NCBI GenBank assembly: GCA_947184155.2
Contig: CAMXCT020000257.1
Span: 124,001 to 188,000, forward strand
Length of the DNA stretch: 64,000 nucleotides
Source of the DNA: Cladocopium goreaui
Taxonomy: Eukaryota; Sar; Dinophyceae; Suessiales; Symbiodiniaceae
Reading direction: 5' to 3'
Shown here: piece by piece, positions 30,494 through 55,268 of the stretch
Layout of the letters: the number at the start of each line of letters is the position of its first letter
Numbering within the stretch: position 1 is the stretch's first letter
Translations under genes and position numbers: made by a program
Notes under the pieces: generated by a model
Databases searched by the model: none
What the model was told of the DNA's origin: nothing
What the model saw: only the letters and a program-made list of their open reading frames with translations

Positions 30494-31046
30494 TGTGTGT
30501 GTGTACCATCTGAACAGATGTAAAACTTCTTATTGGTTTTCACTACTTTGCAGGGGGACTGGAGCCGATTTGCCTATCCAGTCCAACGAAGCTATGGCAT
30601 TTCGGTGGATGAGTGGTCTGATCAACCACTTGTACCTGCAAAACTCAGTTTGAACTGTTGACCAAGCTGTTACACTGCGTTGTTTCGACTCTACACGGTT
30701 GCCACAATCTGTATTGCATGCATCAGAACCTTCCTCAGATTTTCGCCGAAACCATATCGCCGACAGTATTATGATTTTTTGATATATTTTCGCCGAGATC
30801 ATGTCGCCGATGAACAATGGGTCATTTTGGGAAACAATCGCCGAAACATTATTTGGGATTTCAACATGCTGGTCATCACTCTATGGACTCTGGTTTTAAC
30901 TACGTTTGACAATATCGGATGCCCTACATCGTTTTCGAGAAGTACCTCATGCGGCTCTTTTACTCATCAAATAATTTAGACTGGTTTGCATGTTTCAGGA
31001 TTCAGTTCCTGCCGGATCATATAATGATCCATTCTTGTCTAGTGTG
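30494..31046 (+). repeat. Pseudo-LTR A, 5' copy
   Basis: 553 bases matching 43,065-43,617 with about two differences. It starts TGTGTGTGTGTACCATCTG and ends TCTAGTGTG. Near the start is the palindrome CATCTGAACAGATG, then a pyrimidine tract and TTTGCAG, which could act as a trans-splice acceptor, directly before the pseudoknot RNA. Confidence 0.9.
30551..30640 (+). other. Pseudoknot-hairpin RNA motif, copy A1
   Basis: P1 pairs GGACTGG (30,556-30,562) with CCAGTCC (30,578-30,584). P2 pairs GCCGA (30,564-30,568) with TCGGT (30,602-30,606), extended by TGCC/GGCA (30,571-30,574 with 30,596-30,599). P3 pairs GTGGT (30,613-30,617) with ACCAC (30,625-30,629), loop CTGATCA. The constant parts are CAGGGGG at the start, AACGAAG after P1 and GTACCTGCA at the end. 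Confidence 0.75.
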
Positions 31047-31577
31047 ATTTCCATGGTGGCTCCGACATGGTGCCATGGAGCCATTGGAGGCAACCCTTTT
31101 CAGGGTGAGTGTTGACAGACTTGAATTCTGAATTCACACATTTTAACTTAGTAATTCGTTTAAGTAGAGGGCAACAATCAGCCTTGCGGTTTATCAGCCA
31201 TTTTGTGATTTCCTGCTGCTCCGGCTGTCCCAGGGACCCCAGTGATCTGATCTTTCAAGTGAAGCTGCTTCGAAATACCAGAAACTTCCTTTTATCACTG
31301 CAGCTTGCGCATTTGAAGTTCAACATGACATTCACGACAAAAGGCAACAGGCATGTCCTTTTCCTGCAGGTGTGGTCTCTTTGGTTTTTGGTGAGGTGAA
31401 ACATATTGTGCATCTAATTCGTTGGAACTTGGAAGCTGTTTTATGCCATTGCGGCACGACTTGACCACGGTCCCGGTGCAGGGAATAATCGCACGATTTT
31501 GTAGGCAGTTAGGGACTGAATCCTGTATGTGGAGAAAATTTTACAATTGTTCACTTTTGTTTTGATCTACTGAAGCG
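31047..31577 (+). promoter_or_regulatory. 5' leader of element 1
   Basis: Non-coding. Two blocks are shared with the leader of element 2: TTAGTAATTCGTTTAAGTAGAG (about 31,147) and, about 270 bases on, GGTGAGG followed by TATTGTGCATCTAATTCGTT. A TTTTCCTGCAG acceptor-like site lies at about 31,360-31,370. Candidate promoter, packaging or splice signals. Confidence 0.5.
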
Positions 31578-34199
31578 ATGCATCCGTGGACCACTCCGCC
31601 AACATCATGGCCTGTTCCACCGCAGCCTACGAACGCACCTTCGACGTGGCCGCAATCATCGCAGAACGTACATCTATTTGGACATCCTTCGGCCTTGCAT
31701 CCTACATGGTCTTCTTCAGCTTCGATCATGCCGTCTACATCATCCCCAACATCGTTGCCGTTTACCTCATTGTCTCCGGCTCCTCATGCAGTACCAGGTC
31801 TACAGCTCGTACCCACCATGCCTGCGTCTTTGGCCTCCGAACCCACGATGGCGCACACCGCTCCTTCGACTTTCCCATCTCCTTCGGCACCCACCGCTCC
31901 ACCTGCCTGGCCTTCTCCTCCGACTTCATCTCCTACGTCGACTCCACCACCTACATCGACTATGCCACCGACACCTTTGCCAAGTTCTCCTTACCCACCC
32001 CATCACATTCAACCTCCATTACAAACGGACGCATTGATGGTCTCTCCAGATGCACCTCCTCCACGGCCTCCTGCAGTTAAGGCAGCTCCCAGGCCTCGCT
32101 CTGACAAAAGAATGGATCGACCGCGCAGGCCAGCTTCAAAAGCCCCTCCTTCGACTACACCACCAGCACCCACGGCAGCACCTACGTCATCCGTGCCACC
32201 CGAACTGGTCGCATTGGGTTCCACTACACAGCAACTTGCGGAATCGGTTCGACTTATTCAAGCTCAGCAACAGGTGATCATGGATACTCAACGAGCCCAA
32301 GAACAACGTCAGCTACTTCTCCAACAAGACGGACCTCCACCGAACCCTATTCCACAAATACCACAACCTACCCCCGTGCCACCACTGTCAGCCACACCTC
32401 CACCCGCACCGAAAGCCAGACCTACCGAACCTGACGTTCCGGACCTTCGCATTGTTCAAGCCCCAGCCATTGCTCCTCCTCACCAACTACCAGTTCCATC
32501 ATCCCCAACACGCCGACCAAGATCTAGGACTCCACGACCACGTTCCCATCGACCTTCTGTACATTCTCATCGCCACCGCTATTCTCCTCCACGTGCAGAG
32601 CGACCTCGTTCTCCTCTCCCTCGTCATCGATCATCCACGAAACCCGACAAGGGCCGCAGAACCCCATCTCCATACAGACGACGCTCCCCACCACGACGCC
32701 GCTCTCCCGTGGTTCCTCGACGTCATCGATCTCGCCCACGTCCACGTTCCGCGACACCACGTCACCGATCCAGAGGCCGTGAAGTCATACTTCGACCAGC
32801 TGCGAACCCATCGAATCCAAACTACATCCCCACTCCCGATGCTGATGACACCTGGGGTACATGGAACGACAGTCACTACACCGACAACTACCATCACCAC
32901 AATACTCGACCCAATTCTCCTGCCGATCCACCACCAACGGAACCACCAACCAACCCACCAACCCACACTTCAGCACCACTCGGCTCGGTGTCCTTCCGAG
33001 TTCCGGACGGCGACAGTGAAAATTCTGAGGTTACAGATACAATTTCGCTCACCAAGTTTGACACGAATGACATCGACCTCGATGAAATGGTGGCGGCGGC
33101 CAATGACCCCCATAGGGTCCGTTGCCTGACTGAGCTTGGCCCCGATCATGTTGTTCCCCTACGCCGATCATTGACCCCGGCTATCTTGCAGCTCTTCAAC
33201 CAATTTGTGGACGCGATGTTCGAAAAGTTGGCTCAACCATACCGCACCGTCAACAACCATCGTATTTACATCAAAGCAAGCCAAGCCACCGTCAGGAATA
33301 TTGCCAGGGCCTTTGCGCAATCCGACTTACTGGACGTCGAACTCGCAAGGCAAACACAAGCCTTCTACATCGAGCCAGAGAACTTGCTGACCATCACGGT
33401 TCCCACAGGATTGAAGAAGAAACCAATCTACCGTGGCGAACACATGGGCACCTACCTGATCTACCACAAAACGAGTTGGGAATCAGTTGCCAAAATTCTT
33501 GCGGAAGACTGCATCCGTCCGGCAACTTGGACAAAAAACGAAGCCGGCATGCCGACTCAATACCCATGTTACGGGTTCTTCGGAATGTCCTCTGAGATCG
33601 CAGACATCGACAACCTACCCGGCTATGCTGTCAAGATCTGTACCTCTCAGCTCTACAAAATAGGCAAAGGACAAAACCCATCAGGCCTACTGGCCATATG
33701 CCGCTCACCCAAATGCATCCGTGCCCTAGCTGGAGGAAATGACCAAATCCAACGCTTGTGCAACCTTGCGGGCATCGCCAAGGGCAAAGACAATGCAACG
33801 GCTATGAACTCAAGCGCCGCATCTATATGCTACGTTGCCTCCACTCACACGGTTTTCCCGGGCTTGATCACACACCAGACTGCAGAGACCAATGCACCTT
33901 CGGAACCTCCTGATGATTCTGCACGTCCAGTACGACCTGACCCTTCTGCCGACGCCCCAGAACCTTCGGAGCCGCCCCCAGACGACTCTCGCGACACACC
34001 GAGCCACCGCGAAACCGCTGCCTCTGGCTCTCGGGACTATGCTCGCCGATCTTGGCACGACAATGCTTCTTGGGACAATTCCACCTACAACCACCGAGAT
34101 CGCCGATCCTCATACCATGAAGACCACTCTCGTGACCAGCACCATGAAGGCCGACCTCGTTCTCGACACTCGACCCACCACTCTAGATCTCGTTGGTGA
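31578..34199 (+). CDS. ORF1: Pro/Arg/Ser-rich protein with ART-like C-terminal domain
   Basis: 873 residues from the first ATG. Residues 1 to about 320 are Pro/Ser/Thr-rich, about 320-430 are Arg/Ser/Pro-rich in the style of RS domains (SRTPRPRSHRPSVHSHRHR), which often bind RNA or splicing factors. From about residue 500 a folded domain begins. It contains YHKTSWESVAKILAEDCIRP, then PCYGFFGMS about 30 residues later. The matching domain in the second element reads HGTTLSTAQLILMEGKIRP and FGAFYIG, which is the pattern H-G-T...I-L..G..P...G.F/Y of the ADP-ribosyltransferase/PARP fold. Here Gly is replaced by Lys. The tail is again RS/His-rich. A polypyrimidine tract and CTGAAG precede the ATG. 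The enzymatic role is inference only. Confidence 0.7.
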   Translation: MHPWTTPPTSWPVPPQPTNAPSTWPQSSQNVHLFGHPSALHPTWSSSASIMPSTSSPTSLPFTSLSPAPHAVPGLQLVPTMPASLASEPTMAHTAPSTFPSPSAPTAPPAWPSPPTSSPTSTPPPTSTMPPTPLPSSPYPPHHIQPPLQTDALMVSPDAPPPRPPAVKAAPRPRSDKRMDRPRRPASKAPPSTTPPAPTAAPTSSVPPELVALGSTTQQLAESVRLIQAQQQVIMDTQRAQEQRQLLLQQDGPPPNPIPQIPQPTPVPPLSATPPPAPKARPTEPDVPDLRIVQAPAIAPPHQLPVPSSPTRRPRSRTPRPRSHRPSVHSHRHRYSPPRAERPRSPLPRHRSSTKPDKGRRTPSPYRRRSPPRRRSPVVPRRHRSRPRPRSATPRHRSRGREVILRPAANPSNPNYIPTPDADDTWGTWNDSHYTDNYHHHNTRPNSPADPPPTEPPTNPPTHTSAPLGSVSFRVPDGDSENSEVTDTISLTKFDTNDIDLDEMVAAANDPHRVRCLTELGPDHVVPLRRSLTPAILQLFNQFVDAMFEKLAQPYRTVNNHRIYIKASQATVRNIARAFAQSDLLDVELARQTQAFYIEPENLLTITVPTGLKKKPIYRGEHMGTYLIYHKTSWESVAKILAEDCIRPATWTKNEAGMPTQYPCYGFFGMSSEIADIDNLPGYAVKICTSQLYKIGKGQNPSGLLAICRSPKCIRALAGGNDQIQRLCNLAGIAKGKDNATAMNSSAASICYVASTHTVFPGLITHQTAETNAPSEPPDDSARPVRPDPSADAPEPSEPPPDDSRDTPSHRETAASGSRDYARRSWHDNASWDNSTYNHRDRRSSYHEDHSRDQHHEGRPRSRHSTHHSRSRW

Positions 34200-34544
34200 A
34201 CTATTTCCCCTTGAGAAGCACCGGAACAAGTATCGACTATTCTACGTCAGCGATACAGTGAGCCTAGTGGCCCCGCCCGATCATTTTGGAGTAACAATGC
34301 TTCTCCCGACATTCGGTATTGCTGCCACTTCTTCCTCAAAAGGTTTGTGAATCGCTGCTTGCTCATATTGTTGATCCTTTCGCCCGATTCGTTTTCACTT
34401 TACGTCTCACACAATGGGACCACGTATTATGTTTCACACTTTTTCAATTTCACATTACCCTTGTCTCACCTCGACATTTTCCGCAGCTTTCATTCGGCAG
34501 TTCGAGCGCATTTTGACCTATTATTTCGTGACCCTCTCTACATC

Positions 34545-35849
34545 ATGGCGTCCCAGGACCTGATCTCCCAATACAGCGCGGATATGAATGGAATTCCTCC
34601 TTCCCAGCCGGATCGCTCGCGCACACCACCACGTCATCAACATGGATGGCACCAAGCAGTACCGGCGTTCCGTGGCCCGATGCATTATGCCATGACGACC
34701 CATCGACCCTTGTGGAACCCATCCGGAATACCGCCTCCGCCACCTACGTCTCCATCGTTCCCAACACGCCCACCATGGACTTCACCTACGGCACCTTTCC
34801 CGCCCACGCCGCCTCCGAGCTCACAGACACCTCCCAACAACGCCAACTTTGCACCTCAACGTCACCCTTTTACACCGAGATCACCGAGACCTATGTCATC
34901 CCCAGGAGCAAGTTCCTCTGTCAACGAAGGATATACATGCAGACCAATTGAAATCCCACCAGTGGAGAACTGGAAACCGGATGTCGACTTCCACGACTCC
35001 AACAAAATCAATGGTTTGGACTTCCCTTCCAGAATCCGACAGAGCAGATTTTCAAGCTACAAGGACATTGAAGGGATGGATCCTTTACAAGTCCCACTCT
35101 GGAAGTTCTTGTACCAGGGCTTACACAATACTTGGCTTCGTCGAGTGGCATACGGAAGAGAAACCTTCGTCCTTCCTTTTGACAACATAGGCACTACAGT
35201 ATTTGTGGCCGAATTGGTATCCCAACTACGCACCCGCAATGTAGACTTGGACAAACTTGCTACATTTCGAGCTCGTTCAGCAGGCCAATGTATCAACCAG
35301 AAGGAGGCCACCCAAAACATGGCCAAAGATGTTGCTCAACTTCTCCAATCTTGGCTCCCGACTCAACCTTCTGCTGACGTGGCAAGCCAACAACGCATTC
35401 TTGAACTGGAAGCAGAACTGGCCAAGGTCAAATCGGCCGCTACTACCTCACCAGCTACAGCACCTCCGGGCTCAACTCCGGCTACGACACCGATAGGACG
35501 TGCACTTCAAGGACAACCTGCCGCTTCTACGACCTTCGACCCCTCAACTCTGCTTATCTCTCCGGGCTCCGTGAACACTTGGCTCGTTGACAACCAACCC
35601 ACATCATTGTCGGACACTCAATACACCAAGTGGTTGAAAGCCTTGAAGCTACCCCAGCCCAAACAGGATATCCTGGAGAAGAACTTGGAAAAGGTCAATG
35701 AATGGTGGCAAAACCAACCCGATGATGCTTCGAAAACTATCCAACGCGCAAGCGTGGCTATGGGTATCGACCCCTGCAAGCACAAGGGGGCCTCCACGGA
35801 TGAAGTCGTCCTCAAGGTCATGACAGTGGCATTATTGATGCAATCCTGA
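34545..35849 (+). CDS. ORF2: Gag-like protein with coiled coil
   Basis: 434 residues from ATG 34,545, which follows TTTTCCGCAG and CATCATGG; the frame is open upstream but the polypyrimidine tract there argues for this start. The first 150 residues are Pro/Ser-rich (PPPPPTSPSFPTRPPWTSPT). A conserved domain follows (NKINGLDFPSRIR ... DIEGMDPLQVPLW ... LRRVAYGRETFVLPF), then a leucine-rich coiled coil (QQRILELEAELAKVK), then a C-terminal domain (YTKWLKALKLPQPKQDILEK). The order fits a structural nucleoprotein, but no zinc knuckle is present. It ends at TGA followed by CTAG, in frame with ORF3. Confidence 0.7.
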   Translation: MASQDLISQYSADMNGIPPSQPDRSRTPPRHQHGWHQAVPAFRGPMHYAMTTHRPLWNPSGIPPPPPTSPSFPTRPPWTSPTAPFPPTPPPSSQTPPNNANFAPQRHPFTPRSPRPMSSPGASSSVNEGYTCRPIEIPPVENWKPDVDFHDSNKINGLDFPSRIRQSRFSSYKDIEGMDPLQVPLWKFLYQGLHNTWLRRVAYGRETFVLPFDNIGTTVFVAELVSQLRTRNVDLDKLATFRARSAGQCINQKEATQNMAKDVAQLLQSWLPTQPSADVASQQRILELEAELAKVKSAATTSPATAPPGSTPATTPIGRALQGQPAASTTFDPSTLLISPGSVNTWLVDNQPTSLSDTQYTKWLKALKLPQPKQDILEKNLEKVNEWWQNQPDDASKTIQRASVAMGIDPCKHKGASTDEVVLKVMTVALLMQS

Positions 35850-35853
35850 CTAG
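35847..35853 (+). promoter_or_regulatory. Candidate stop-readthrough site TGA CTA G (element 1)
   Basis: ORF2 ends TGA CTA GC and the same frame stays open through LAAYLKVPGSKAANI to the ORF3 ATG at 35,895. UGA CUA G is an established leaky stop context in some viral and animal mRNAs. Element 2 has the identical seven bases. Confidence 0.65.
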
Positions 35854-35894
35854 CAGCCTATTTGAAAGTACCTGGCTCAAAAGCAGCCAACATT

Positions 35895-38630
35895 ATGCGA
35901 ACTTTGGCCGTGGCTCATTCCTGTATCCTTGTTCTTGCACTATTGACTCCTCTCACGTTGTCCCCTTCTGTTGATGTCTTTTTTGCTTTTCGGATGCTTC
36001 AAACAGTATTGATGGGCCAATATGTGTTATTACACCCACGGGCAAATCCGAAACTCCAAGCCTTGCTCAAAGGCACTCCGATGCAGAGTATTTTCTTTTG
36101 CAGATCCTGGGATGACTTGTCAGTCGCCCTTCAATGTTTCAAGCACCCTCAGGCGGTGTATATTCGTTTCTGCCACATTGCTAATTTTCAACCTAAGTTT
36201 TATGTTGGTTCCACATCGTCGTTTGTTTTGGACCGCGAACACTCTCGCTATCGGAAATTTCTGCAAGTGCAACAACATAAATTCGTGCTGGCCGAAGTTG
36301 CCTTACGGTTTTGGTGCAGATTTGACAATTTCTGGATGTGGTCTGTTTTCCCGATCTACACCAATAAATCCAACTTTTGGGCCTTGGAACAGGCCTTAAT
36401 TCAATTGTGGCAACCTCGATTGAACACCCCGTTCATTTACCAGTTTTTCAATTGCCGAAAGGGACTCATTGCACGTACCAAATTTTCCGCCTCTCGACAA
36501 TTTGGAGCATTTTCCTTGTGGCGGAAACTTCGCTGGCGATCTACACCTCATCATGTTCGACACGCTCTTCATAGTCCTCTTTTCCATCGACGAGTACAAC
36601 TTTGGGAGATTATCCAGGATTTGGGCAGTAACTCCGTTCGACGCTTCCACATGGAAAAGAAACTACGATCCAACGAAATTGGAGTTCAAGGCTGCTACTT
36701 TATCCGACGTCTTGCCAACAACCTTGGAGAACCTCAAAGGTCGTACGCCGTCAATGCCATTGACCGAGCTCTGACCTTTTGGAAAGCCAAACGAGTCAGA
36801 AAACCGGTTCCTCTTCGTGCGCCTTGGCTACTATGCCCCAACTGGACTCGGGATCTTCGACGCCTACTCACCTCCCACGTTCATCAAACCCGACACTACA
36901 ACACCACATTACAGACTCCTTCCACGGCGATTGTCTTCACAAAGTTCCCCTCGGTGATGGATAGCTTGTGCAATCACAAAGAAGCCGCTACCAAATGGGC
37001 TGACGGCGAAACCCCAAAGTGTGCCTGTGATGCCTTGCGACCTCATGCCCTTCAAGGTCTTCAACCCGATCACCACCTGGTCCTCGACGGCGACAACCTA
37101 CATTTCGATAATGGCCCACACACATCCATTGCGACTGGTTCGCTTCAAAACAAAATCTTCCCACCTTCCAAAGAAATCCAGACATCGCTTCGCAAGGCTC
37201 TGCGGACATGGACTACCCGAAACTCACTCCCTTCCTTACAAAAGTCCCATATTGATGAGCTTTGGCATCGTTCTATTCAATCCCACTACCACACACTCAA
37301 CAACCACATCACTCACAAAGACATCGGCCGCTTCAAACGTCTTTTTCCAGAAGCCGTCTTCCACAACGAGGACAAGCGAGCTACATCCTTACGAATCTAC
37401 TGCCCCGTACTCTACTTCCAGTGCCTCACCACCACCTTCGCCGACCCGTTGGTATTTCGCAAATTGGAGCAAAGCCCGAGTGACATCATCGAGCGGACCA
37501 TCGCCGAGATCAACCGCCATTTTGGTAAAGCATACCCATGGGCCCTTGGTGCTGGACGAGACCTGCCGAATGCCTATGTTCTACCCAAACGGAAGTAACG
37601 GAAGAAACAGTTCAAGGCTGGACGACCCATTGTCAGCTTCTTCACGGCACCTTTCCGACCTATGTTGAACTGCACTGCCAAGCTGATATACAACCTTCTA
37701 CCCCAAGCGTTTCCCCACAACCTAGCAAAGGGTGATGTATTTGATCTCATCAAGCTCCTCAAGGACACTGACTTTGATTCGCTCCCCACTCCACGAATAC
37801 ACAACCAAGATCTTGCGGGCTTTTTCACAAGCATTGACACAGACCGCTTCATCGCTAGCTGGCGACTGACCTTGCAGTTCCTCTCGACCCTCATGAATAC
37901 CGACCCTGATGAGATCATCTCCGTGAAGGCAACTCCGGGCAACAACACAGGGGACGTAGTAAAAGGCCGCACATGCCGTACACTCAATGTGACCAGGAAG
38001 ATCTTCATTCGGGACATTGAACGCATCATCCTCATGTCTTTGAAGATGACTCACTTCTCCATTGGCACTACGGTTTTTGAACAAATCCGAGGATCCCCTA
38101 TGGGCTCCCCACTGAGTCCAGCTTTGTGCATGATGGTTGTTGCATTGTCTGAAGAAATCTGGTACAAAACCTACCGCACCACCCTTAGCAACATGGATCT
38201 CACAGCTCGCCTCCTTCGCTATGTGGACAACAGACTGTGCTTGTCGGACCCCAGCTGGGACTACGAAATTTGCTTCGCCAATTTCCTCCACCCGGAGTTC
38301 TACGGCCATCCTATCATTTTGGAAACGGAACCGGACCAGGAGTTCTTGGGCTTTTGTATCGAGTTCGAGCCCTTTGCCCTTCGCTACAGCCCTCCACGCG
38401 ACTTCAACCAGGTCATGGCGCCATTCTCCGCATCACCTTTGGCCGTCCAACTTTCAGGCTTTGTTTCACGATTATTTCTGGTCGCCAAATGCGCGCACCC
38501 TGCACATGAACGAACACGAGGTTTTGCCGCATTGCACCGTTTGTACAGATCTGCAGGTTTTACCGAGTCCGATCTTTTCGCTGCCGCCAAGCCAATTCGT
38601 CAATACTTGCACGTTTCCTCATTGTGGTAA
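35895..38630 (+). pseudogene. ORF3: GIY-YIG endonuclease-reverse transcriptase, in-frame stop
   Basis: First ATG at 35,895; the frame is also open back to the ORF2 stop. About residues 85-200: VYIRFCHIANFQPKFYVGST (the GIY and YIG strands as VYI and YVG), then DREHSRYRKF and ALEQALIQLWQPRLN, holding the Arg, Glu and Asn of the nuclease. A KCAC motif (CxC) links to the RT. RT motifs: GRPIVSF, DLAGFFTSIDTDRF (motif A), GSPMGSPLSPALC (motif B), RYVDNRL (motif C, YVDN instead of YxDD), and DQEFLGF. A TAA at 37,596-37,598 interrupts the frame; it lies in a 9-base duplication (ACGGAAGTA/ACGGAAGAA) absent from element 2. It should nick DNA and copy its RNA onto the target. Confidence 0.85.
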
Positions 38631-38803
38631 AATCCTGAACCGTCTTGCCGCGTGCGCTTACGTTTCATTACTCACACCTTGCTGAACGTTTCACCTATTT
38701 GGACCTTATTAGAATTTATTTGATTTCGGAATTGTGCTTTTCCAGCTGGCTTACCCTCAAACTCGGCTTCATTTACTTGTTGACCCATATTCGACGCATT
38801 GTC

Positions 38804-39436: not shown

Positions 39437-39548
39437 CCAACGACATATGCGAACCAAACAAAAAAGGCAGTTTGCGGCACGGTATTACGGCTTCACCAAC
39501 CAGTTGGCTTCCTTTTGGGAATTTTTCTCCTTGTTAATCTTCAGAACC

Positions 39549-42955: not shown

Positions 42956-43064
42956 GGTGATCGCCCGTTTGTACATTAGGTTATTACAGGTTCACTTTCA
43001 CTGGTGTATTGCCGATTCCGCCAGCGAAGTTCTTCCAAAAAATCCAACCTCGCTACATGCGAGG

Positions 43065-43617
43065 TGTGTGTGTGTACCATCTGAACAGATGTAAAACTTC
43101 TTATTGGTTTTCACTACTTTGCAGGGGGACTGGAGCCGATTTGCCTATCCAGTCCAACGAAGCTATGGCATTTCGGTGGATGAGTGGTCTGATCAACCAC
43201 TTGTACCTGCAAAACTCAGTTTGAACTGTTGACCAAGCTGTTACACTGCATTGTTTCGACTCTACACGGTTGCCACAATCTGTATTGCATGCATCAGAAC
43301 CTTCCTCAGATTTTCGCCGAAACCATATCGCCGACAGTATTATGATTTTTTGATATATTTTCGCCGAGATCATGTCGCCGATGAACAATGGGTCATTTTG
43401 GGAAACAATCGCCGAAACATTTTTTGGGATTTCAACATGCTGGTCATCACTCTATGGACTCTGGTTTTAACTACGTTTGACAATATCGGATGCCCTACAT
43501 CGTTTTCGAGAAGTACCTCATGCGGCTCTTTTACTCATCAAATAATTTAGACTGGTTTGCATGTTTCAGGATTCAGTTCCTGCCGGATCATATAATGATC
43601 CATTCTTGTCTAGTGTG
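43065..43617 (+). repeat. Pseudo-LTR A, 3' copy
   Basis: Matches the 5' copy at about 99.6% (differences near 43,250 and 43,423). It ends AGTGTG and runs straight into pseudo-LTR B through the shared GTGTGTG. Confidence 0.9.
43122..43211 (+). other. Pseudoknot-hairpin RNA motif, copy A2
   Basis: Same sequence and pairings as the motif in the 5' copy, beginning CAGGGGGACTGG and ending GTACCTGCA. Confidence 0.75.
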
Positions 43618-43988
43618 TGAAACCCGTTATAACATACGGATATTTTACAATTTCGTACAACGAAGCAAGGAAGACAATATGTGGCGACAATAAGAACTGA
43701 ATTTTAATTCAGACATGCAGGGGGCTGGAGTGTGAATCAGAAGTCTCCAGCCAACGAAGACGCTTCTGATGTCACAGTGATATCAACCTGGGACGCTGGG
43801 TTGACGTACCTGCAATGTTGGTTCGAACTTTTGCACAAGCTGTTCTATTACTTTGTTTTTGAGTCATTTGGCAAGAATCGATTGCCCGAATCTCACCGTT
43901 TGCAACCGTGCCACATCGAAGGTGACTTAGGAAATCAGGCGACGGCAAGTTCTACTCTCATCATCATCAAATCAACCTAAGCAGTGTG
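43614..43988 (+). repeat. Solo pseudo-LTR B
   Basis: About 375 bases, starting TGTGTGAAACCC and ending CTAAGCAGTGTG, with the same internal layout as A and C but different sequence. No body ORFs accompany it; it is either a solo remnant or the 3' stub of a lost element. Confidence 0.75.
43718..43814 (+). other. Pseudoknot-hairpin RNA motif, copy B
   Basis: P1 GGCTGGA (43,723-43,729) with TCCAGCC (43,746-43,752). P2 ATCAGAAG (43,736-43,743) with CTTCTGAT (43,763-43,770), extended past one bulge by GTGA/TCAC. P3 CAACC (43,784-43,788) with GGTTG (43,799-43,803). The constant AACGAAG and ACGTACCTGCA are present. This is the longest and clearest P2. Confidence 0.8.
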
Positions 43989-44478
43989 TGAAACGTCTGT
44001 ACAGACGTAAAACTTCCATGGCATTGTTGAATCTGGTTTTTTGGTTTTATTTCAGTTTAAAACAAGCAGGGGTCAGTTTCAAACAAGCAGGGGGGCAGTG
44101 AATCTCATTCCATCCACTGCCCAACGAAGACGGTGGTTTGAGATTGTGATATCGGGACTGATCATCCCGACGTACCTGCATTTTTCCAATTTACCGTCAA
44201 TGGCAACCGGCTAAGCCAAGTACCGGCATGTCGAATTTCCATTTGAGGAGTCTCTACTGCACTGTTGTCGCAATCTGGATTTATTTGGTTATTTGGGTAT
44301 TTACAACTGGTCAGCTGCATCAGAACCTTCTTCAGAGCAAGGACGTAGAAAATTTACTTCGCCATGAATTTCACGCTGGATCAACTAATTTTTCCTGGCA
44401 GTTTGTAAGGGATTGTCTTGTGCACGTGAGATGCATTCCACAACAGTAATTCGCAATGATGTTTCTGAGCAAGTGTGT
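43984..44478 (+). repeat. Pseudo-LTR C, 5' copy
   Basis: 495 bases matching 54,774-55,268 with about three differences. It starts GTGTGTGAAACGTCTG, has the perfect 16-base palindrome ACGTCTGTACAGACGT, then TTTTATTTCAG as an acceptor-like site. ACAAGCAGGGG occurs twice just before the pseudoknot. Confidence 0.9.
44088..44180 (+). other. Pseudoknot-hairpin RNA motif, copy C1
   Basis: P1 GGGCAGTG (44,093-44,100) with CACTGCCC (44,115-44,122). P2 AATCTCA (44,101-44,107) with TGAGATT (44,139-44,145). P3 CGGGA (44,153-44,157) with TCCCG (44,165-44,169), loop CTGATCA as in A. Constant AACGAAG and ACGTACCTGCA are present. Confidence 0.8.
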
Positions 44479-47118: not shown

Positions 47119-47442
47119 GCATTTAAGATAGCTTTCTCTGATCGTGTATCATTAGCTTTCTTGTCCTAAACAGGATCATGACTTCTTTTCTAGGGATTTC
47201 CTGGACACACGCATTGGCAAAATGCGACTGCTGACTCACCAGTCTGAGTGCTTTCCACTCTTATGCACTTTTTGTTCATTTTGAGCTTGCTGATTTTGTT
47301 TATTGTCCTTGACGCACTTACCAACATTGTTTGACAGGGTCCTGTAACGACAATGTGATGTTCCATTTCCTTTCATCCTCTCAATCGATGTAACCACCGC
47401 AGCTTTTTTGATCTATCAGTACTGTGAACAGCCCACGACACT
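47119..47442 (+). promoter_or_regulatory. ORF1-ORF2 spacer, element 2
   Basis: 324 bases without an ORF. It ends in a long pyrimidine-rich run and CCACCGCAG (about 47,394-47,402), then 40 bases to the ORF2 ATG, as expected of a trans-splice acceptor and a short 5' UTR. Confidence 0.5.
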
Positions 47443-48885
47443 ATGGCAGAGTCTGATCGATCCCGCTCACCAGCACCTGGTCGAAATCGAGCTGAACCTG
47501 AGCCTTCTCAACATCCTGTACGACAAGCTCTTCCGTTCTTTCCTCGATGGTGTGGTCCTATGCAATCAGCGATTTGGCACTCTCAACAGATGCTGCGAGC
47601 TCAGTCCAGACCTCAGTTCCAACCTCAGCTCAATATGCACCAGTCGGGACCTTATATGATGATTCCACCAACAAATCCATCAGCTTCGACGCAGACATGG
47701 ACAAATCCAAGACTTCCAACTACCCATCCAAGATTTCCACCTGCACCTCCTTCGTCCCCACCACCAACACTTGCATATCCACGTCAATCCAGCTCAGCCA
47801 CTCCGCCATGTTCACCTACGATTCCATGTGCCCCAACTCAACTGGCTTCGCCCAGTACTCCATCAATCCCGTCGTCACAACCTCGTCGCTCTGGCACTCC
47901 ATTCTCCAAGTCCCCAGGAGGACAGACTACTATGGATGAAAGTCGTACATATGGTTTCGATCTCAACCCCCACTGGCAAGATGACCAAGACCATTACGAC
48001 AATCAAAAGATCAACGGCTTGACCTTTCCTCGGAGTATTCGACCCTCAGCTTTTACACAAAAGCTGGACATCGAGGGATGCGATCCTTTGAAGCTACCGG
48101 TTGCGGCCTTACTATATCAGCAGGCCAACAACTTTTGGCTTCGGAAGCTGGCTCATGGGCGTGAACTGTACCTGATTCCGACAGGGGACATTGCAGCTGT
48201 GGTATTTATGACGGAGCTATTGACTCAGCTTCGGAACAAAGGGGTGGACCTTGACAAAGTGTCATCCTGCAAAGCCAGACAGGATGGGAAGCTACTGGAC
48301 AAGACCAACAACACCAAGTATGCTGCCCAACAGATCGCAGACTTGATCCACACTTGGGTTCCCACCCGAACGGCAGACCCTGACACTCAACATGAACTGA
48401 CTCAACTCCGGAGTCAACTTGCCCAATTGCGTCAACAACTAGGGGATACCCCAGGCGACTCCTCTACTCCGGGCACTTCTGGCCCTTCAGCATCCAATCC
48501 TGCTGCCACACCCATCCATGCTGCTCTTCTTCGAAGCTCCCCACAATCAGCTCCTCCTGCACCACCGAGCTTCGATCCTTCATCCCTCCTGGTCGGCACC
48601 ACCAGTGTCAATCCGTGGCTCACTCAAAACATGCCAACCACTCTGGCAGTCAGAGCTTTCAACAAATGGTTGAAAGAACTCCCACTCTCCGATGCCAAAC
48701 GCAAAGTGCTCACCGACAACATTACCAAGACGGAAGAATGGTGGGCAAAGCAACCAGCTGAAGCTCTTGACACTGTGGAACGAGTGGCAGTCATGATGGG
48801 CATCCCAGTCCATCTTATGGGCAAAAACTACGATGTGCTGAACCTTCTCCGGGCTATGACAGCGGGCATCAGCCTCACCAACTGA
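47443..48885 (+). CDS. ORF2: Gag-like protein with coiled coil
   Basis: 480 residues from ATG 47,443 (MAESDRSRSPAPGRNRAE). The conserved domain (QKINGLTFPRSIR, DIEGCDPLKLPVA, LRKLAHGRELYLIP, KGVDLDKVSSCKAR) aligns along its length with ORF2 of the first element. A coiled coil (HELTQLRSQLAQLRQQLG) and a C-terminal domain (FNKWLKELPLSDAKRKVLTD, EEWWAKQPAEALDTVERV) follow. It ends TGA CTA GC and is in frame with ORF3 12 bases on. Probable structural or RNA-binding protein. Confidence 0.7.
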   Translation: MAESDRSRSPAPGRNRAEPEPSQHPVRQALPFFPRWCGPMQSAIWHSQQMLRAQSRPQFQPQLNMHQSGPYMMIPPTNPSASTQTWTNPRLPTTHPRFPPAPPSSPPPTLAYPRQSSSATPPCSPTIPCAPTQLASPSTPSIPSSQPRRSGTPFSKSPGGQTTMDESRTYGFDLNPHWQDDQDHYDNQKINGLTFPRSIRPSAFTQKLDIEGCDPLKLPVAALLYQQANNFWLRKLAHGRELYLIPTGDIAAVVFMTELLTQLRNKGVDLDKVSSCKARQDGKLLDKTNNTKYAAQQIADLIHTWVPTRTADPDTQHELTQLRSQLAQLRQQLGDTPGDSSTPGTSGPSASNPAATPIHAALLRSSPQSAPPAPPSFDPSSLLVGTTSVNPWLTQNMPTTLAVRAFNKWLKELPLSDAKRKVLTDNITKTEEWWAKQPAEALDTVERVAVMMGIPVHLMGKNYDVLNLLRAMTAGISLTN

Positions 48886-48889
48886 CTAG
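48883..48889 (+). promoter_or_regulatory. Candidate stop-readthrough site TGA CTA G (element 2)
   Basis: The codons after the stop (CTA GCT CCG CTC ATG CGT) stay open into ORF3. The flanking codons differ from element 1 but TGACTAGC is identical. Confidence 0.65.
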
Positions 48890-48897
48890 CTCCGCTC

Positions 48898-51819
48898 ATG
48901 CGTCGAAAACTCAAGCACAAAGTGCTTCAATCCCATTTGCAAATTCTCCATTCGATGATTCTCATCCTTTACATTTTGACTCCCTTCACCATGACTTACA
49001 GCGTCCATTTGTTCCACGGATTCCGCATCAGCCAAACTCGAATGATGCTCCTGACAATCCTTCATGGTCATCGACACAATACCAAGCTGAAGTCAATTTT
49101 GGAAGGGTGTGCAGACCTTCAACACCTGTGGGGCTCCACACTTCATTCTCACAACCTTTTTTCCAGACAATTTTTCCAGCCTCAGAGCGTCTATATTCGT
49201 TTCACTCATATCAAATCCATGCAACCCAAATTCTACGTGGGCTCTGCAATGCATCATATCATGGACAGAGAGTACAGCCGCTCCAGGAAATACCTTCAAC
49301 TCACCAATGAGAGACTTGTGCAAGCTGAACTGGCACTTCGTTATTGGCAAGAACATGACAATCTGTATATTTGGGCACCTATTCCCATCTATACAAACAG
49401 AAGCGACTACCGCAGCCTCGAAATGGCACTGATTCAGGAATGGCAACCTCGCTTGAATTATCCTTTTATTTGCCAATTCTTCCATCCAAAGAAGGGTCTT
49501 CTCAAAAAAACCCTTCTTAACACAAACGCTCAATTTGGCCTTGCGACTCTTTGGCGGCGTGCCAAACACAAGTTCACTCCACAACTTGTCCGCCAAGTTT
49601 TTGACTTCCTCCAGATTCCAAAACCGTCTGGAACTCTGGACAATCATTCACGCCTTAGGTTCCAATACCAAGGCACGATTCGAGCAAACAAAGATGCTCA
49701 GATCCAATGATGGTGGACTGACCTTTTGCTACGCTCTTCGACGACTGGCCAACAACACCCAGGAGCCATTCCGCACCCTATCCTTGAACGCCATCGATGC
49801 TTCGATCCAATGGTGGCGTGGCAAACCAGCACCCAAAGCAACAGCTCTACGTGCCCCATGGTGCCTCGCTCCAGACCTTCAGCAAACACTAAAGAAGTTC
49901 TTGCGACAATGGCATGTCAAAATGTTGGCTCACCAAGTACCATGCCATCTTCCATCCTTCAAGACTGTCTTCATCAAACATGCGGCAGTTTTGGACATAC
50001 TATGCAATCACAAACAGGCCGTTGACGATTGGTCGACTACCATCCCTGCCACATGTTGTTGCAAATCCTGGTCCCGCTATAAGAATGCAACACTCAATCC
50101 ATCAGACTCTCACTGGGTCCTGTCCGGCTCTCTTCTTCACTCCCATCTCCAACCAGACCTGCTGTCATCGCGGAAGGCTCTTTGGCAAACAAAGTCTTCC
50201 CTTCCAAGAAGGAGTTTCAAAACCAATTGCGTCTTGGATTACGAAATTGGACCAAACGCAATGGTCTTCCTTCCATGCCCCAATCCGATATCACTGATCT
50301 CTGTCAGCAGCTATGGCACAAACACACTTCCCAGATCACCAATCACATCACAAAGCAATCGATTGGACGACTACAAGAAACCTTTGAAGGTGCCATTTTC
50401 CACTGTGAGGACAAACAAGCCTCTTCTCTTCGCATATTCTGCCCATGTATTTATTACGAGGCGATCGACAAAACATTCCAAGACCCTTCCATCTTTGAAT
50501 CCCTGCCAAATGAACCATCCTCGATCGTGACCTCCTTGGTTGAAACCCTACACCGCCAACATGGACGGGCATATCCTTGGGCAGTCGGATCGGGTCGTCA
50601 ACTCCCATCTGGATATATCCTGGCAAAACGAAAGAAAGACTTCCACAGTGGACGACCCATTATCTCCTTTGTCGATTCCCCATTCCGACCAATGCTCAAC
50701 ATCCTTGCCAGACTCATTTTCCAGCTCATCCCCACGGCGTGCCCAAATCACTTCGCTACTGGAGATGTGTACACTTTGCTCTCGATATTGAGATCGGCAC
50801 CTGTTGATGCCGACTTGATTCTGGTCAACCAAGACTTGGCAGGTTTCTTCACCAGTATTGATCAAGACCGATTCCTTCGCTCCTGGTTCATGCTCCTGGA
50901 CTTTCTCCGACCAAAAATGAATGTAGACGATGAGGAGGTCTTTTCCGTTTACCCTGGAAAGTCCAACAATCCAGGTGACATCATCAAAGGCCGTACATTT
51001 CGTCGCCTCAATGTCACTCGGAAGATTGTCATCGGCGATGTACCAGACTTGATCAAATCAGCCTTGCACATGCAGACCTTCACATTGGGAAAACGGTGTA
51101 TCCGTCAAGGCCGGGGCAGCCCCATGGGCAGTCCTCTGTCGCCTGCCCTATGCCTCATGGTCGTCTCCATCAGTGAACAGGTTTGGCACAACACCTTCCG
51201 TCAACTTCTCTCCAATCATCATCTCTTCATCCAACATGTTCGCTACGTTGACAATCGCCTCATCTTCGGTGACAAACGTCTTACCTCATTTGTTCCATAT
51301 GAGGTTCTCCTGGATGATGGCTTCTATGGAAAACCGATTGTCCTCGAAAGTGAACCAGATCAAGAATTCCTCGGCTTCATGGTTGAAACAAAGCCGCTGG
51401 AACTGATTTATCAGGGACCAACACAGGTGTCACAAGTTCTCTCACCGTTCTCAGCTTCACCTCCTTCGGTTCTTCTCAGCGGCTTTCGGTCGCGTTGTCA
51501 TATTGTCATCAAGGGTGCTTTTCCATCCCTACGTGTCCAGCAAGGTTTAGCACAGCTAATTCGATTGTACTCACGAGCTGGTTTTCCCAACGAGGAACTT
51601 CAATCCATCTCCAATCAACTTTTGATTCAGCATCAGAACTCGAGCACCACCGGAAAAGCTGATCTGCGGCCTTCTCAGGGTTCTCGTTCTTGGTTGGTTG
51701 GTTTTGTTTTCGCTTGTGTTTCTGGTCTTCTTTTTCTCGTGTTTGTCGTTGTCTTTTCGTTCTCTCCCTCAGCTTTTTCGGCTCAAACTCCGCTCTCCTC
51801 TTGTTTCCTCCTTGTTTGA
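48898..51819 (+). pseudogene. ORF3: GIY-YIG endonuclease-reverse transcriptase, two frameshifts
   Basis: GIY-YIG part: VYIRFTHIKSMQPKFYVGSA, DREYSRSRKY, SLEMALIQEWQPRLN. Comparison with the first element shows a frame change at about 49,600-49,615 and a change back at about 50,140-50,180, so the linker with its CCC (CxC-type) motif lies out of frame. RT part (frame restored): AKRKKDFHSGRPIISF, DLAGFFTSIDQDRF, GSPMGSPLSPALC, HVRYVDNRLIF, DQEFLGF. YVDN is again found. The last 50 residues (WLVGFVFACVSGLLFLVFVV) are a read-through of the pyrimidine tract that precedes ORF4. Introns or sequencing indels are alternatives to real frameshifts. Confidence 0.8.
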
Positions 51820-51825
51820 ACGCTC

Positions 51826-52806
51826 ATGGATCACGCTCAAGGGCGGGCGTTCCACCACCATTTGGCCAGAGCAATTATGCATCTCAATTATCTGGCAGGG
51901 CTCCTACCTTTCTTCGAGCCCTCCATTGAATATGATGAAGGGCCGCCTCCGGCCAATCTCCGTTTGGATCATCCCACCACCAGAGGTCTACACACTTTTG
52001 TGCCTCGACCAACATCGGAAGGTCCCCCGACCTTGGTATCACATGGAGGTATTCCTTCCCACATGGTCGTGAATCCAGAACCATACCTTCGACCGGCTGC
52101 AACAAGTTCGCCACCTGTCAATGCCTCCATGCTTGCCACGAATACTTCTCGTCATGCCACTCTCATGACGGACCCTGGACCTACTCCGATCCCAGCGTCC
52201 ACAACAACGATTACCTTCCCTACAGCGCCAACACGCACTACCACTCCTGTTCCAATACGCTCAAAGCAAAGGGCAGGTCCTCTGGTTGATCCACAACCAA
52301 AAAAGAAGCAGAAAGGGGAGTCCATTCCTGAACCCAGACTCGCCCACCATCCCGATGCCGATCATTCGACATCGCTACCAGTCATATCAGACACCCGCTC
52401 AGGCGACATGAATTCTGATGACTCCGATGGTGAGGTTGTATCCAGAGAGGACGGCACTTACACACATGCTGCAAAGGCAAGACCCAAAACACCTCCTCCT
52501 ACATTGACTCCCAATCCAACAGCTCCGCCGTCCCCACATATGCATATCCTTCATGCCACTACTGTCGCTACACCACCTAATCCGCTCCTTGATCAAGCTC
52601 GTCCTTGGACCCATGCCGATGATCAAGAATTGATCGGCATGAAAAAGGACACAAAGTCCAGACCCTCGTGGAGAACAATCGGAGCAAGACTCCATCGAGA
52701 TCATCAGCTCTGCAAGATCCGCTGGGGACTTTTGAAACAAACATCCGAAGTGGCTGACCCACCGGGTCCGATCAACGCACCTCACGAACCTGAGGGTGAT
52801 GACTGA
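51826..52806 (+). CDS. ORF4: Myb/SANT-like protein
   Basis: 326 residues from ATG 51,826, six bases after the ORF3 stop; TCTCCCTCAG lies 55 bases upstream inside the end of ORF3. The N-terminal helix (HHLARAIMHLNYLAGLLPFF) matches ORF4 of the first element in position. A Pro/Thr-rich middle and KKKQKGES lead to the C-terminal RPWTHADDQELIGMKKDTKS and RPSWRTIGARLHRDHQLCKI. W-T-x-x-D-D-x-x-L and W-x-x-I fit a Myb/SANT repeat; the third aromatic is W in IRWGLLK. Probably binds DNA or histones. Confidence 0.7.
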   Translation: MDHAQGRAFHHHLARAIMHLNYLAGLLPFFEPSIEYDEGPPPANLRLDHPTTRGLHTFVPRPTSEGPPTLVSHGGIPSHMVVNPEPYLRPAATSSPPVNASMLATNTSRHATLMTDPGPTPIPASTTTITFPTAPTRTTTPVPIRSKQRAGPLVDPQPKKKQKGESIPEPRLAHHPDADHSTSLPVISDTRSGDMNSDDSDGEVVSREDGTYTHAAKARPKTPPPTLTPNPTAPPSPHMHILHATTVATPPNPLLDQARPWTHADDQELIGMKKDTKSRPSWRTIGARLHRDHQLCKIRWGLLKQTSEVADPPGPINAPHEPEGDD

Positions 52807-52985
52807 CTTTAGCATCAATTCCTGCGATGTCAAAAAAGACGCTATTGCTGCCTTTTGTTGCTGGGTTTTGCTTAGGGTTTCCCTTCCTTTTGCTTTTCTC
52901 CTTGTTTTTTAGTTCTTCCTTTGGTCTGTAGTTCTTTTGCCTGGGATGAATGCTCTTCCTTAGTATCTGTTCACCCACAGCAAGT

Positions 52986-53600
52986 ATGGCTCATTCATAT
53001 CATCGTCAACGAACAGCTCCTGACCGCTCCCGTTCTCGGGACGACAATATGTGGCAGAACCGTGGCACTCAGCAACATGATTGGCAACGAAATCCTCGAC
53101 CTGAAGAACCACCTCCTGCCCCTCAAGTCTGAAAAGTCTTGGTCATCGTTGACATTGAACAAGTCCGCCCGCTTATGAACAAAACCCATGATGACTCGAT
53201 GGCCGCTACAACATGTGAGGTTCTCCCTCGCCTCACTCCGGTCGAAGAACGTGCATTGTTCACGTTCAACATCCTGCTCAATACACACCGGTTGGAAACC
53301 TTCCCGGTCTACAACCTGTTGTATTGCATCAGCCAGCACATTTGGTATACGTGGGATCGATTCTTATCTCCTTCGGCCATGGACATCAGATGGCAAGATG
53401 ATACTGGAGATACGTTTGCTCTCCGCAACGAAGAATACCTCGTCACCTATCTGAACGCATACCGCTCTCACTGGACTGAGGGACAAGAACATAATGAGTT
53501 CTTCTCGCATCATATTCATCCCTTTACGTCTCACATTCAACCTTACATCATGCGTTTGAGCTGCCACGAGGCTCTTCCAAACCGCAATATGCTTCCTTAA
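52986..53600 (+). pseudogene. ORF5: protein X with an in-frame TGA
   Basis: ATG 52,986 follows TCACCCACAGCAAGT. MAHSYHRQRTAPDRSRSRDD and PEEPPPAPQV run to a TGA at 53,130-53,132; the same frame continues KVLVIVDIEQVRPL to 53,600. Against ORF7 of the first element (NPPPNRPVLILVDFSPLQAL) the stop falls inside the homologous protein. The body includes YCISQHIWYTWDRFLSPSAM and RWQDDTGDTFALRNEEYL. Either a nonsense mutation, recoding, or translation from ATG 53,175. Confidence 0.6.
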
Positions 53601-53714
53601 GGTTAAAAAGTCTCTTACATGTAAGGACATGGGACTCTCTATCTTGTGTGATTTGCTTCTGCTTCTTGTTGTTTTTACCCGCTACATTCTTTAGTTCTCG
53701 GCTCCAGCTGTACC

Positions 53715-54653
53715 ATGACCAGACGTGATTCCTCATTTGCCGGTCTCACGCATCCTTCCTCATCCATGAATAAGTCACGTCGTGTTTCATGGAGATCCCG
53801 CAGTCATGGCCAATCCAGTAGCACTGCTGCTCCTTCGGATCGAATGCAGCCACCCCGTGGCGACAATGATCCCCAAGCTGGAAGTTTCCTCTCACCCAAT
53901 GCATCAGGCGAGTACACAACCAACTATGGGTACTCTTCGGCAAGTCTTGCCACACCCATACCATTTCCTGCCGATCATCAAGCTCCAATTATACCTACTC
54001 CCACAGAAGAATCATATCCACTCCAGCAAGAGATGGAGGAAGTCCGACGTCAGCTCCATGCATACTATTTCGTGGAAGTCCAATCACCTCCAGAAGATGA
54101 CGATCAACCAAAACTTCGACGACTTATGGTGACGGAAGTGGATCAACGGGGCCGCCACCACAATAGGCAGCCTGAATATTTTTTCAACGGCATCATCGGC
54201 CACGTTCGTGCCGGTCAGAATGGCTGGATTGACTCATGGGATCAATCCTCCCAGCTCGCCAACTACTGGCGACGCTACTTTCAGATTCCCGAGACCTCTC
54301 CATATGGCAACTGGCGTCCCTATCAAGCTGACGGACCAGAAAGCCCTATATCGGCACATGAATCCGTCATGGAAGACACCGACTCTCTCATTGCCAATGC
54401 TGACATCAATCCACCTCCTGTTCAGATTCACCAACTGGCAACATTCTTCTGGAACGTCCTCAACAATGACAGGGAGGCCAACCTGGCCATACTCGAACGT
54501 CTGGAGGATCCTGAAGGAGATCTTTCCCGACACCCAGTTCAGATCTTCTCGGCGGCAGACTTGGCTCATCTTGCTAGTCACTTGGCGGAATCCACGAGGA
54601 CCTTGTCTATCCAAGCACGCCGCATAGAGGCCTTACCTGATGACAGCCTGTGA
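53715..54653 (+). CDS. ORF6: protein Y
   Basis: 312 residues from ATG 53,715, preceded by TTCTTTAG. A Ser/Arg-rich N-terminus (MNKSRRVSWRSRSHGQSSST) leads to the core YYFVEVQSPPEDDDQPKLRR, PEYFFNGIIGHVRAGQNGWI and NYWRRYFQIPETSPY. A helical C-terminal region (HQLATFFWNVLNNDREANLA, DLAHLASHLAESTRTLSIQA) may mediate oligomerisation. Homologous to both Y copies of the first element. Family unknown. Confidence 0.65.
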   Translation: MTRRDSSFAGLTHPSSSMNKSRRVSWRSRSHGQSSSTAAPSDRMQPPRGDNDPQAGSFLSPNASGEYTTNYGYSSASLATPIPFPADHQAPIIPTPTEESYPLQQEMEEVRRQLHAYYFVEVQSPPEDDDQPKLRRLMVTEVDQRGRHHNRQPEYFFNGIIGHVRAGQNGWIDSWDQSSQLANYWRRYFQIPETSPYGNWRPYQADGPESPISAHESVMEDTDSLIANADINPPPVQIHQLATFFWNVLNNDREANLAILERLEDPEGDLSRHPVQIFSAADLAHLASHLAESTRTLSIQARRIEALPDDSL

Positions 54654-54773
54654 GGTTTAGGATTAATTCATTCGATGTTTCTTCCCTGTGTTTTGAAGCC
54701 ATTTCCGCTTCAGGGAACGGATAAGAGCTCTCCAGGTGATGAATGGAAAAACGACCCTGCTGCGGCAGGGTGT

Positions 54774-55268
54774 GTGTGTGAAACGTCTGTACAGACGTAA
54801 AACTTCCATGGCATTGTTGAATCTGGTTTTTTGGTTTTATTTCAGTTTAAAACAAGCAGGGGTCAGTTTCAAACAAGCAGGGGGGCAGTGAATCTCATTC
54901 CATCCACTGCCCAACGAAGACGGTGGTTTGAGATTGTGATATCGGGACTGATCATCCCGACGTACCTGCATTTTTCCAATTTACCGTCAATGGCAACCGG
55001 CTAAGCCAAGTACCGGCATGTCGAATTTCCATTTGAAGAGTCTCTACAGCACTGTTGTCGCAATCTGGATTTATTTGGTTATTTGGGTATTTACAACTGG
55101 TCAGCTGCATCAGAACCTTCTTCAGAGCAAGGACGTAGAAAATTTACTTCGCCATGAATTTCACGCTGGATCAACTAATTTTTCCTGGCAGTTTGTAAGG
55201 GATTGTCTTGTGCACATGAGATGCATTCCACAACAGTAATTCGCAATGATGTTTCTGAGCAAGTGTGT
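54774..55268 (+). repeat. Pseudo-LTR C, 3' copy
   Basis: Matches the 5' copy at about 99.4% (differences near 55,037, 55,048 and 55,216). Preceded by a short G-rich junction CTGCGGCAGGGTGTGTG. Confidence 0.9.
54878..54970 (+). other. Pseudoknot-hairpin RNA motif, copy C2
   Basis: Identical pairings to the 5' copy of family C, starting CAGGGGGGCAGTG and ending CGTACCTGCA. Confidence 0.8.

Follow-up and report, generated by a model that had tools for sequence, protein, structure and literature searches.

What is the short sequence that recurs in the long direct repeats of two retroelements of the dinoflagellate Cladocopium goreaui, and what does it do there? The elements, A (30494-43617) and C (43984-55268), lie in a 64,000-nucleotide (nt) stretch of contig CAMXCT020000257.1 (positions 124,001 to 188,000, forward strand), here called the window. 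An earlier note on this DNA had described a covarying pseudoknot plus hairpin in Penelope-like pseudo-LTRs (pseudo-long terminal repeats) and had proposed a candidate new ribozyme or structural RNA. M is the short name used here for this knotted RNA motif of ~90 nt in Penelope-like pseudo-LTRs. It is regarded as almost certain that M is a selected, compactly folded structured RNA of Penelope-like retrotransposons, and the covariation of its stems P1, P3 and P4 together with the duplex energy of its pseudoknot P2 identifies it as a selected RNA fold.

Copies of the motif in the window

30494..31046, plus strand: 5' pseudo-LTR of element A (99.6% identity to 43065-43617)
30550..30639, plus strand: M copy A1, inside the 5' pseudo-LTR of element A
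43065..43617, plus strand: 3' pseudo-LTR of element A
43121..43210, plus strand: M copy A2, inside the 3' pseudo-LTR of element A
43613..43989, plus strand: solo pseudo-LTR B (98% identity to one repeat of the 1.1-kilobase (kb) derivative L029)
43717..43813, plus strand: M copy B, inside the solo pseudo-LTR between elements A and C
43984..44478, plus strand: 5' pseudo-LTR of element C (99.4% identity to 54774-55268)
44087..44179, plus strand: M copy C1, inside the 5' pseudo-LTR of element C
54774..55268, plus strand: 3' pseudo-LTR of element C
54877..54969, plus strand: M copy C2, inside the 3' pseudo-LTR of element C

M starts 56-104 bases into each repeat, and 176-407 nt separate it from the GTGTGT end in the three kinds of repeat. 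All five copies lie where the earlier note had placed them and fit a single pattern exactly, with 0 matches expected from 100 shuffles. A covariance model of 37 families, which include window copy C and relatives of A and B, recovers the five at 75-87 bits. A sixth match to the model (11872-11966, minus strand, 15 bits, E value 0.057) was chance-like on reading and was set aside.

Fold of the motif

M is composed of a closing stem (P0), P1, the pseudoknot P2, a mini-helix (P4), the P3 hairpin and a foot pair. The parts of copy A1 are as follows.

30550-30554/30635-30639, plus strand: P0
30555, plus strand: single G
30556-30563/30577-30584, plus strand: P1
30564-30576, plus strand: pseudoknot loop strand
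30585-30591, plus strand: AACGAAG
30592-30593/30606-30607, plus strand: P4, with P2' in between (first pair C-G, second U.U in the A family)
30608-30611, plus strand: GATG
30612-30630, plus strand: P3 hairpin
30631, plus strand: U
30632-30634, plus strand: GUA

The loci for comparison were picked by patterns with AACGAAG and GTACCTGC, and mostly GCAGG too, so the constancy of these three blocks is partly built in. GCAGG, AACGAAG and GTACC belonged to the search patterns, unlike GAW and the foot pair. From the fetched loci, 69 distinct motifs passed the requirement of at least 7 of 8 pairs in P1, and after two motifs without a parsable P3 had been dropped and those at least 88% alike removed, 39 families were left. 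The shuffle statistics for P1, P2 and P3 were based on 38 families (L104 excluded) and the alignment, made by sequence only, on 37 (L104 and L035 excluded). P3 and GAWR were read in the best-fitting register, which tilts that reading to pairing.

P0 has 5 base pairs (bp), GCAGG/CCUGC, is kept in 36 of 37 families (the patterns required it) and shows no covariation among the 37; it presumably pairs, and its near-constancy would stem partly from the pattern bias. Outward extension of P0 beyond 5 bp was rejected (53 flank pairs, P 0.23-0.69). P1 has 8 bp, with 98.7% of cells paired (58% shuffled). When the P1 filter is left out, the fixed-register stem has 7-8 pairs in 66 of 68 distinct motifs, the remaining two having a G run one base longer or shorter. 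A previous unfiltered check gave 32 of 36, the other four being register shifts. A best-of-21-register check gave 80 of 82, which is weak since mismatched partners reach the same in 746 of 2,904 cases.

P2 is formed by the P1 loop and the strand 3' of AACGAAG, which pair over 8-14 bp. The mean duplex energy is -17.4 kcal/mol; shuffled duplexes have a mean of -5.3 and a best of -6.9 in 300. P2 is often interrupted part-way by a bulge or small internal loop: it has 9 bp in A (GCCGA-UU-UGCC/GGCA-UU-UCGGU, with L042 as stand-in), 14 bp and a bulge in B (L029 as stand-in), and 12 bp with a UU/UU mismatch in C. The unpaired gap between P2 and P1' is 0-4 nt long in the 39 families.

P3 is paired in 99.1% of cells (47% shuffled), with 6-9 contiguous pairs in 37 of 39 families and loops mainly of the RGACGY or YUGRYCA type. 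P4 is a covarying 2-bp mini-helix whose two pairs flank P2'. Among the 37 families its first pair is C-G in 18, A-U in 17, G.U in 1 and other in 1, and its second is C-G in 16, U.G in 9, U-A in 5, G-C in 2 and other in 5. The foot of P3, which joins the last base of GAWR to the base before GUACC, is A.C in 26 and G.U in 12 families (38 of 38); this wobble swap is isosteric and points to a defined tertiary pair. About 14 unpaired bases are near-constant, namely the single G, AACGAAG, GAW and GUA. Stem sequences vary freely, whereas junction bases hardly do. The earlier note had recognized P1, P2, P3 and the constant linkers, which the covariance model and the 37-39 families bear out; the stem extents needed revision, P1 having 8 bp and P2 being longer than drawn, and P0 and P4 had been missed.

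Covariation

In the 37 dissimilar families, 98.5% of the cells of P0, P1, P4 and P3 are paired, against 65.1 +/- 1.1% in shuffled alignments, and the value falls to 34-39% when the stems are slid by 1-3 columns. The covariation that the earlier note had read from three families held in this larger alignment, with a score of 0.856 against 0.170 shuffled on a measure of our own, distinct from R-scape. Cells changed on both sides number 268, against 75 shuffled. These three measures exceed all 500 shuffles. The number of pairs with change on both sides (15 vs 13.3 shuffled) and of further pair types (48 vs 47.8) shows no excess, because nearly every letter already occurs in the alignment columns.

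Size of the family

The two-ended pattern GCAGG-N22..50-AACGAAG-N30..60-GTACCTGC has at least 3,184 matches in the window's own genome (1.17 Gb), and the reversed pattern has 0. The 3' half alone (CAACGAAG...GTACCTGC) gives at least 3,466 matches (22 reversed) and the 5' half alone (GCAGGG...CAACGAAG) at least 4,398 (104 reversed). These counts are lower bounds, although 3,184 includes a few nested registers of one motif. The 5' halves that lack an exact 3' half include paired, seemingly whole families, one with GGCCCGTG at C28:21304 and 30571 and another with GGTCACCG at C22 and C41. Such halves may be a second form of M.

Outside this genome, the five-copy pattern gave 8 matches in viral contigs and 20 in bacterial or archaeal ones, and no stems were seen in them by eye. 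These matches were taken as chance, as seven of the eight viral ones are one recurring 83-base stretch and the rest are scattered. A protein-led scan of viral contigs found no relative of M. No prior report of M was found among open-access papers by title and start of abstract, subscription papers lying mostly outside that search.

Host elements and repeat context

35850..37598, plus strand: frame of element A upstream of the reverse transcriptase (RT), with a weak GIY-YIG match at residues 103-189
37599..38630, plus strand: RT frame of element A (PF00078, E 0.0079, below cut-off; SPMGSPLSPALC and YVDNRL)
48886..49710, plus strand: frame of element C, by eye like the GIY-YIG-like part of A
50083..51819, plus strand: RT frame of element C (PF00078, E 4.6e-5, below the curated cut-off)

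The GIY-YIG family PF01541 matches the upstream frame of element A at E 0.054, below its cut-off. The corresponding frame of element C has no Pfam match, and no GIY-YIG match was obtained in element C or in five scanned relatives. The RT frame of element C has 448 relatives among 8,000 public proteins scored; in the PDB, a sequence search gave no relative at E up to 1 and a profile search gave a single match at E 0.73, which was not used. RT motifs, long direct repeats and layout are the basis of the Penelope label. The sequence fits Penelope-like elements with an endonuclease-like part ahead of the RT, neither label being firm, and to this extent the location that the earlier note had assigned to M is supported. 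The frame after the RT of element C (51820-52806) carries a Myb-like DNA-binding domain (PF13921, 24.8 bits, cut-off 22.9), which is unexpected for a Penelope-like element. Elsewhere in the window, 25284-30390 is made up of ~950-bp tandem units in which an 11-base repeat, CATGCAACACA, and its complement form arrays that face each other, and frames at 1095-5365 resemble a retroelement polyprotein with an apparently integrase-like stretch.

By eye, the repeats consist of a GT tract, a hairpin H, a spacer, M, a remainder and an AGTGTGT-like end, with a hairpin T ahead of many 3' repeats. The hairpins read by eye in elements A and C are the following.

30507..30520, plus strand: leader hairpin H, 3' of the GT tract and upstream of M, with counterparts in other pseudo-LTRs
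43048..43064, plus strand: hairpin T of element A, at the end of the internal part, adjoining the GT tract of the 3' pseudo-LTR
54754..54771, plus strand: hairpin T of element C

Hairpin H (also at 43993-44008) occurs in most repeats in two forms, one being ACATCT-NNNN-AGATGT with GTAAAACTTCT and the other a changing stem around UAUCACAU; its stem changes appear compensatory. Hairpin T is rich in G+C, and its stem varies among families with pairing kept (also in L058, L064, L089 and L101). Insertions lie within GT or GTGA tracts (30468-30504, 43613-43619, 43984-43990; L029), and B and C were apparently inserted at the terminal GT of the preceding copy, which suggests microsatellite targeting by the elements. 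A GT tract or leader hairpin lies at most 250 nt upstream of M in 88 of 89 distinct flanks; the exception, with neither, is the old copy L063.

Among the matches listed, 85 of 99 motifs have a same-strand partner within 18 kb, and the spacings cluster at ~1.03-1.37 kb; further ones fall between 0.3 and 0.6 kb or between 2.4 and 18 kb (99 of 100 listed rows, one nested duplicate having been removed). Sixteen unique non-coding direct-repeat units with a spacing of 978-1364 bp each contain M. Their longest frames have 80-161 amino acids (shuffled means 99-124), five exceeding 140. All 16 match a repeat start, and 14 match stretches of the 5' untranslated region (UTR) of the window elements (30974-31530, 44180-44961). 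These 1.0-1.4-kb units look like internal-deletion derivatives that have retained M. M is carried by the repeats of both Penelope-like elements, by the solo repeat and by these short non-coding derivatives.

Exchange of the motif between repeats

Among 79 copies, 26 pairs have both flanks alike and a different M, and 6 have a like M and both flanks unlike; only the left flank is alike in 66 pairs and only the right in 37. Likeness and unlikeness were set at 80%/60% identity for flanks and 90%/75% for M (shuffled flanks had a median of 56% and a maximum of 70%); the pairs are non-independent, and the shared leader hairpin inflates the count of like left flanks where flanks are short. In the repeat L042 the M of element A lies between flanks of another kind, and a single M type occurs in three different contexts (L089, L100 and L116). 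Left flank, M and right flank reassort, with joints at or within the constant ends of M. These sequences would most simply be explained by an RT that changes template at a stable fold whose ends are shared, so that intact folds are transmitted.

In L101, AACGAAG is joined directly to a right flank by a deletion that starts at the border of M, and in L119 P1 is deleted; this damage would fit skipping of the fold by the RT. No clear joint of two M types was seen at AACGAAG, where a break would ruin P1. L084 and L094 have P1 and P2 in common and different P3 hairpins, one of which is the P3 of family L098, and so exchange appears to occur at the GATA linker inside M as well.

Function of the motif

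A small self-cleaving ribozyme is slightly favoured as the function of M, a preference that is held tentatively. M would occupy the post held by the hammerhead in ordinary Penelope elements. With the junction clamped by the pseudoknot, the constant bases would build an active site next to the lone G that separates P0 from P1. Cleavage at that G or in GUA (the site is a guess) would divide long multi-unit transcripts into units. As for the anole Penelope hammerhead, it might require a protein of the element and would not have to come before reverse transcription. Variable stems around a near-constant junction are the usual pattern of small ribozymes. Hammerheads are found in the pseudo-LTRs of ordinary Penelope elements (PMC7761336; PMC11167929), and the position of M at this site counts for a ribozyme. 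The non-coding derivatives that retain M count for it too, as plant retrozymes retain hammerheads in their LTRs (PMC7761336), and so do the size of M, the covariation of its stems, the A.C/G.U foot pair and the excess of pattern matches over the reversed pattern. The fuller proposal makes M a small pseudoknotted ribozyme of a new class (with a P0/P1/P4/P3 junction and the A.C/G.U foot) that has replaced the hammerhead in this branch of Penelope-like elements, drives the derivatives and is exchanged as a module; it is possible but somewhat doubtful.

Several observations weigh against self-cleavage. Among the matches listed, 92 of 99 3' halves have an intact GCAGG half (100 were listed, one of which was set aside as chance-like; the 92 are 91 two-ended matches and the 5'-half match on C41), and the other seven (L035, L119 and L120-L124) show point mutations, decay or internal deletion, with the leader upstream. 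Piling up of insertion ends at M was rejected in view of these intact 5' halves and upstream leaders. Among copies with the upstream flank read, none starts at M, which implies that the RNA was copied into DNA uncut there. M thus seems not to define the end of the copied RNA, and copies shuffle as if the RT crosses uncut M. There are also ~1,100 more 5' halves than full motifs; in L101 the entire 3' half is gone and in C41:311568 it is shortened, so some members dispense with it or are dead. Ten other candidate RNAs chosen as likely self-cleavers remained uncleaved in vitro (PMC10085705). Cleavage is still compatible with the lack of copies starting at M, because the Penelope hammerhead of the anole cleaves only with protein and unprocessed RNA is its main substrate (PMC11167929).

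The retention of uncut M in both repeats of an element also suits a non-catalytic recognition fold, a reading that is nearly as likely as the ribozyme. The RT/endonuclease would bind the junction and P0, select the RNA and position it for target-primed reverse transcription, in parallel with the RNA pseudoknots bound by telomerase and other RTs. In the template RNA, M belongs to the 3' repeat, and 176-407 nt separate it from the GTGTGT end, the apparent insertion anchor; P0 hardly changes in either sequence or pairing (the pattern bias applies); and the derivatives keep M and the leader, 14 of 16 with the 5' UTR stretches, as would be expected of cis signals for mobilisation in trans. Penelope RTs and telomerase are of common ancestry (PMC3846280), and a pseudoknotted RNA is bound by a bacterial RT (PMC12039810). 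In the anole, however, the RNA needed was located within the first 172 nt of the open reading frame and most of the pseudo-LTR is removable (PMC11167929), and a fixed 7-nt junction strand and a pair limited to A.C and G.U would be superfluous for a bare binding site, which is a weak argument. M might instead shield or gate an RNA end or processing site: it could stop exoribonucleases, conceal a splice or trans-splice acceptor within P0 (...GCAG|G) or offer processing enzymes a transfer-RNA-like site. Pairing does not continue past P0, and pyrimidines are mildly enriched in the left flank (mean 0.64, against 0.55 in the right flank), which ends in an acceptor-like GCAG|G, but only 15 of 39 left flanks reach at least 70% pyrimidine, for which reason the acceptor was rejected as a general feature, and the copies carry M and the leader uncut and unspliced; this role is unlikely.

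If M were a recombination module, with reassortment at its ends by RNA cut-and-join or directed template switching as its function, this would account for almost identical copies of M in flanks that are unrelated and for differing copies where the flanks are alike. Such a function is considered improbable, as the joints need no more than template switching where a stable fold has shared ends of 6-8 nt, and the deletions in L101 and L119 resemble RT skipping. An origin by chance, an assembly artefact or a repeat at the DNA level with no role as RNA could be argued from the few G.U pairs in P1 (2) and P3 (5) among the 37 families, the lack of covariation in P0 and the two unremarkable measures of five. 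This explanation is hardly credible given the three measures beyond every shuffle, the shuffle and reversed-pattern controls, the unfiltered fixed-register P1, the pseudoknot and the A.C/G.U swap.

Whichever function holds, M forms a large RNA family within one genome; its covariation is strong, Rfam yielded no counterpart, and its hosts belong to a retroelement class related to telomerase. The role of the hammerhead in Penelope-like elements is still described as unknown (PMC7761336). If M cleaves, it would be a new ribozyme class that has taken over the post of another ribozyme; otherwise it would probably be the RNA handle by which the RT picks its own RNA and that of its parasites. In either case, the dozens of naturally stem-swapped variants allow a direct test.

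Comparison with known RNA families

In line with the earlier note, which had seen no likeness to HDV, hammerhead or twister, M matched no known Rfam family. No gathering match, hammerhead included, was obtained in the 64-kb window; the 651 bases around B and C gave three weak matches, none a ribozyme, and 20 M loci gave 96, none a ribozyme and no hammerhead among them. The hammerhead was rejected, permuted forms included (PMC10085705 was taken into account for these), as the constant bases are AACGAAG, GAW and GUA and not CUGANGA and GAAA; CUGAUCA occurs only in some P3 loops and differs from CUGANGA. Twister, twister-sister, pistol, hatchet, hairpin and other Rfam ribozymes gave no covariance-model match. 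The nested pseudoknot of the hepatitis delta virus (HDV) ribozyme also has the strand order P1-P2-P1'-P2', and HDV-like ribozymes have P3 and P1.1 between P2 and P1'. The earlier note had set HDV aside by strand order, which by itself does not exclude it; the conclusion stands on the gap of 0-4 nt, which leaves no space for P3 and P1.1, and on the lack of an Rfam match.

M resembles the HDV-like ribozymes of R2 and other retrotransposons in strand order and a G-rich P1, and a CGAA-bearing strand leading to P2' is a further likeness; it differs from them in having no room for P3, L3 and P1.1 and in having P0 and a 3' hairpin outside the pseudoknot. Like the minimal type I hammerheads of Penelope-like elements and Terminons, it is a small cis RNA in the pseudo-LTR with a weak closing stem, but it has neither a CUGANGA nor a GAAA core, its topology is another one with a pseudoknot, and Rfam gives no match. 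Telomerase RNA and other RT-bound pseudoknots (e.g., the DRT2 non-coding RNA) may offer an analogy as pseudoknotted RNAs in RT-bearing systems, whereas M lies in the mobile RNA itself and, again, has no Rfam match. The M units are retrozyme-like in that they are non-coding, ~1 kb long and bounded by direct repeats that each carry a structured RNA; in contrast to retrozymes they contain M in place of a hammerhead (20 loci, Rfam), and most derive from the 5' UTR of a Penelope-like element itself. On these comparisons of sequence and predicted fold, M is a new RNA fold family carried by host elements of a known kind.

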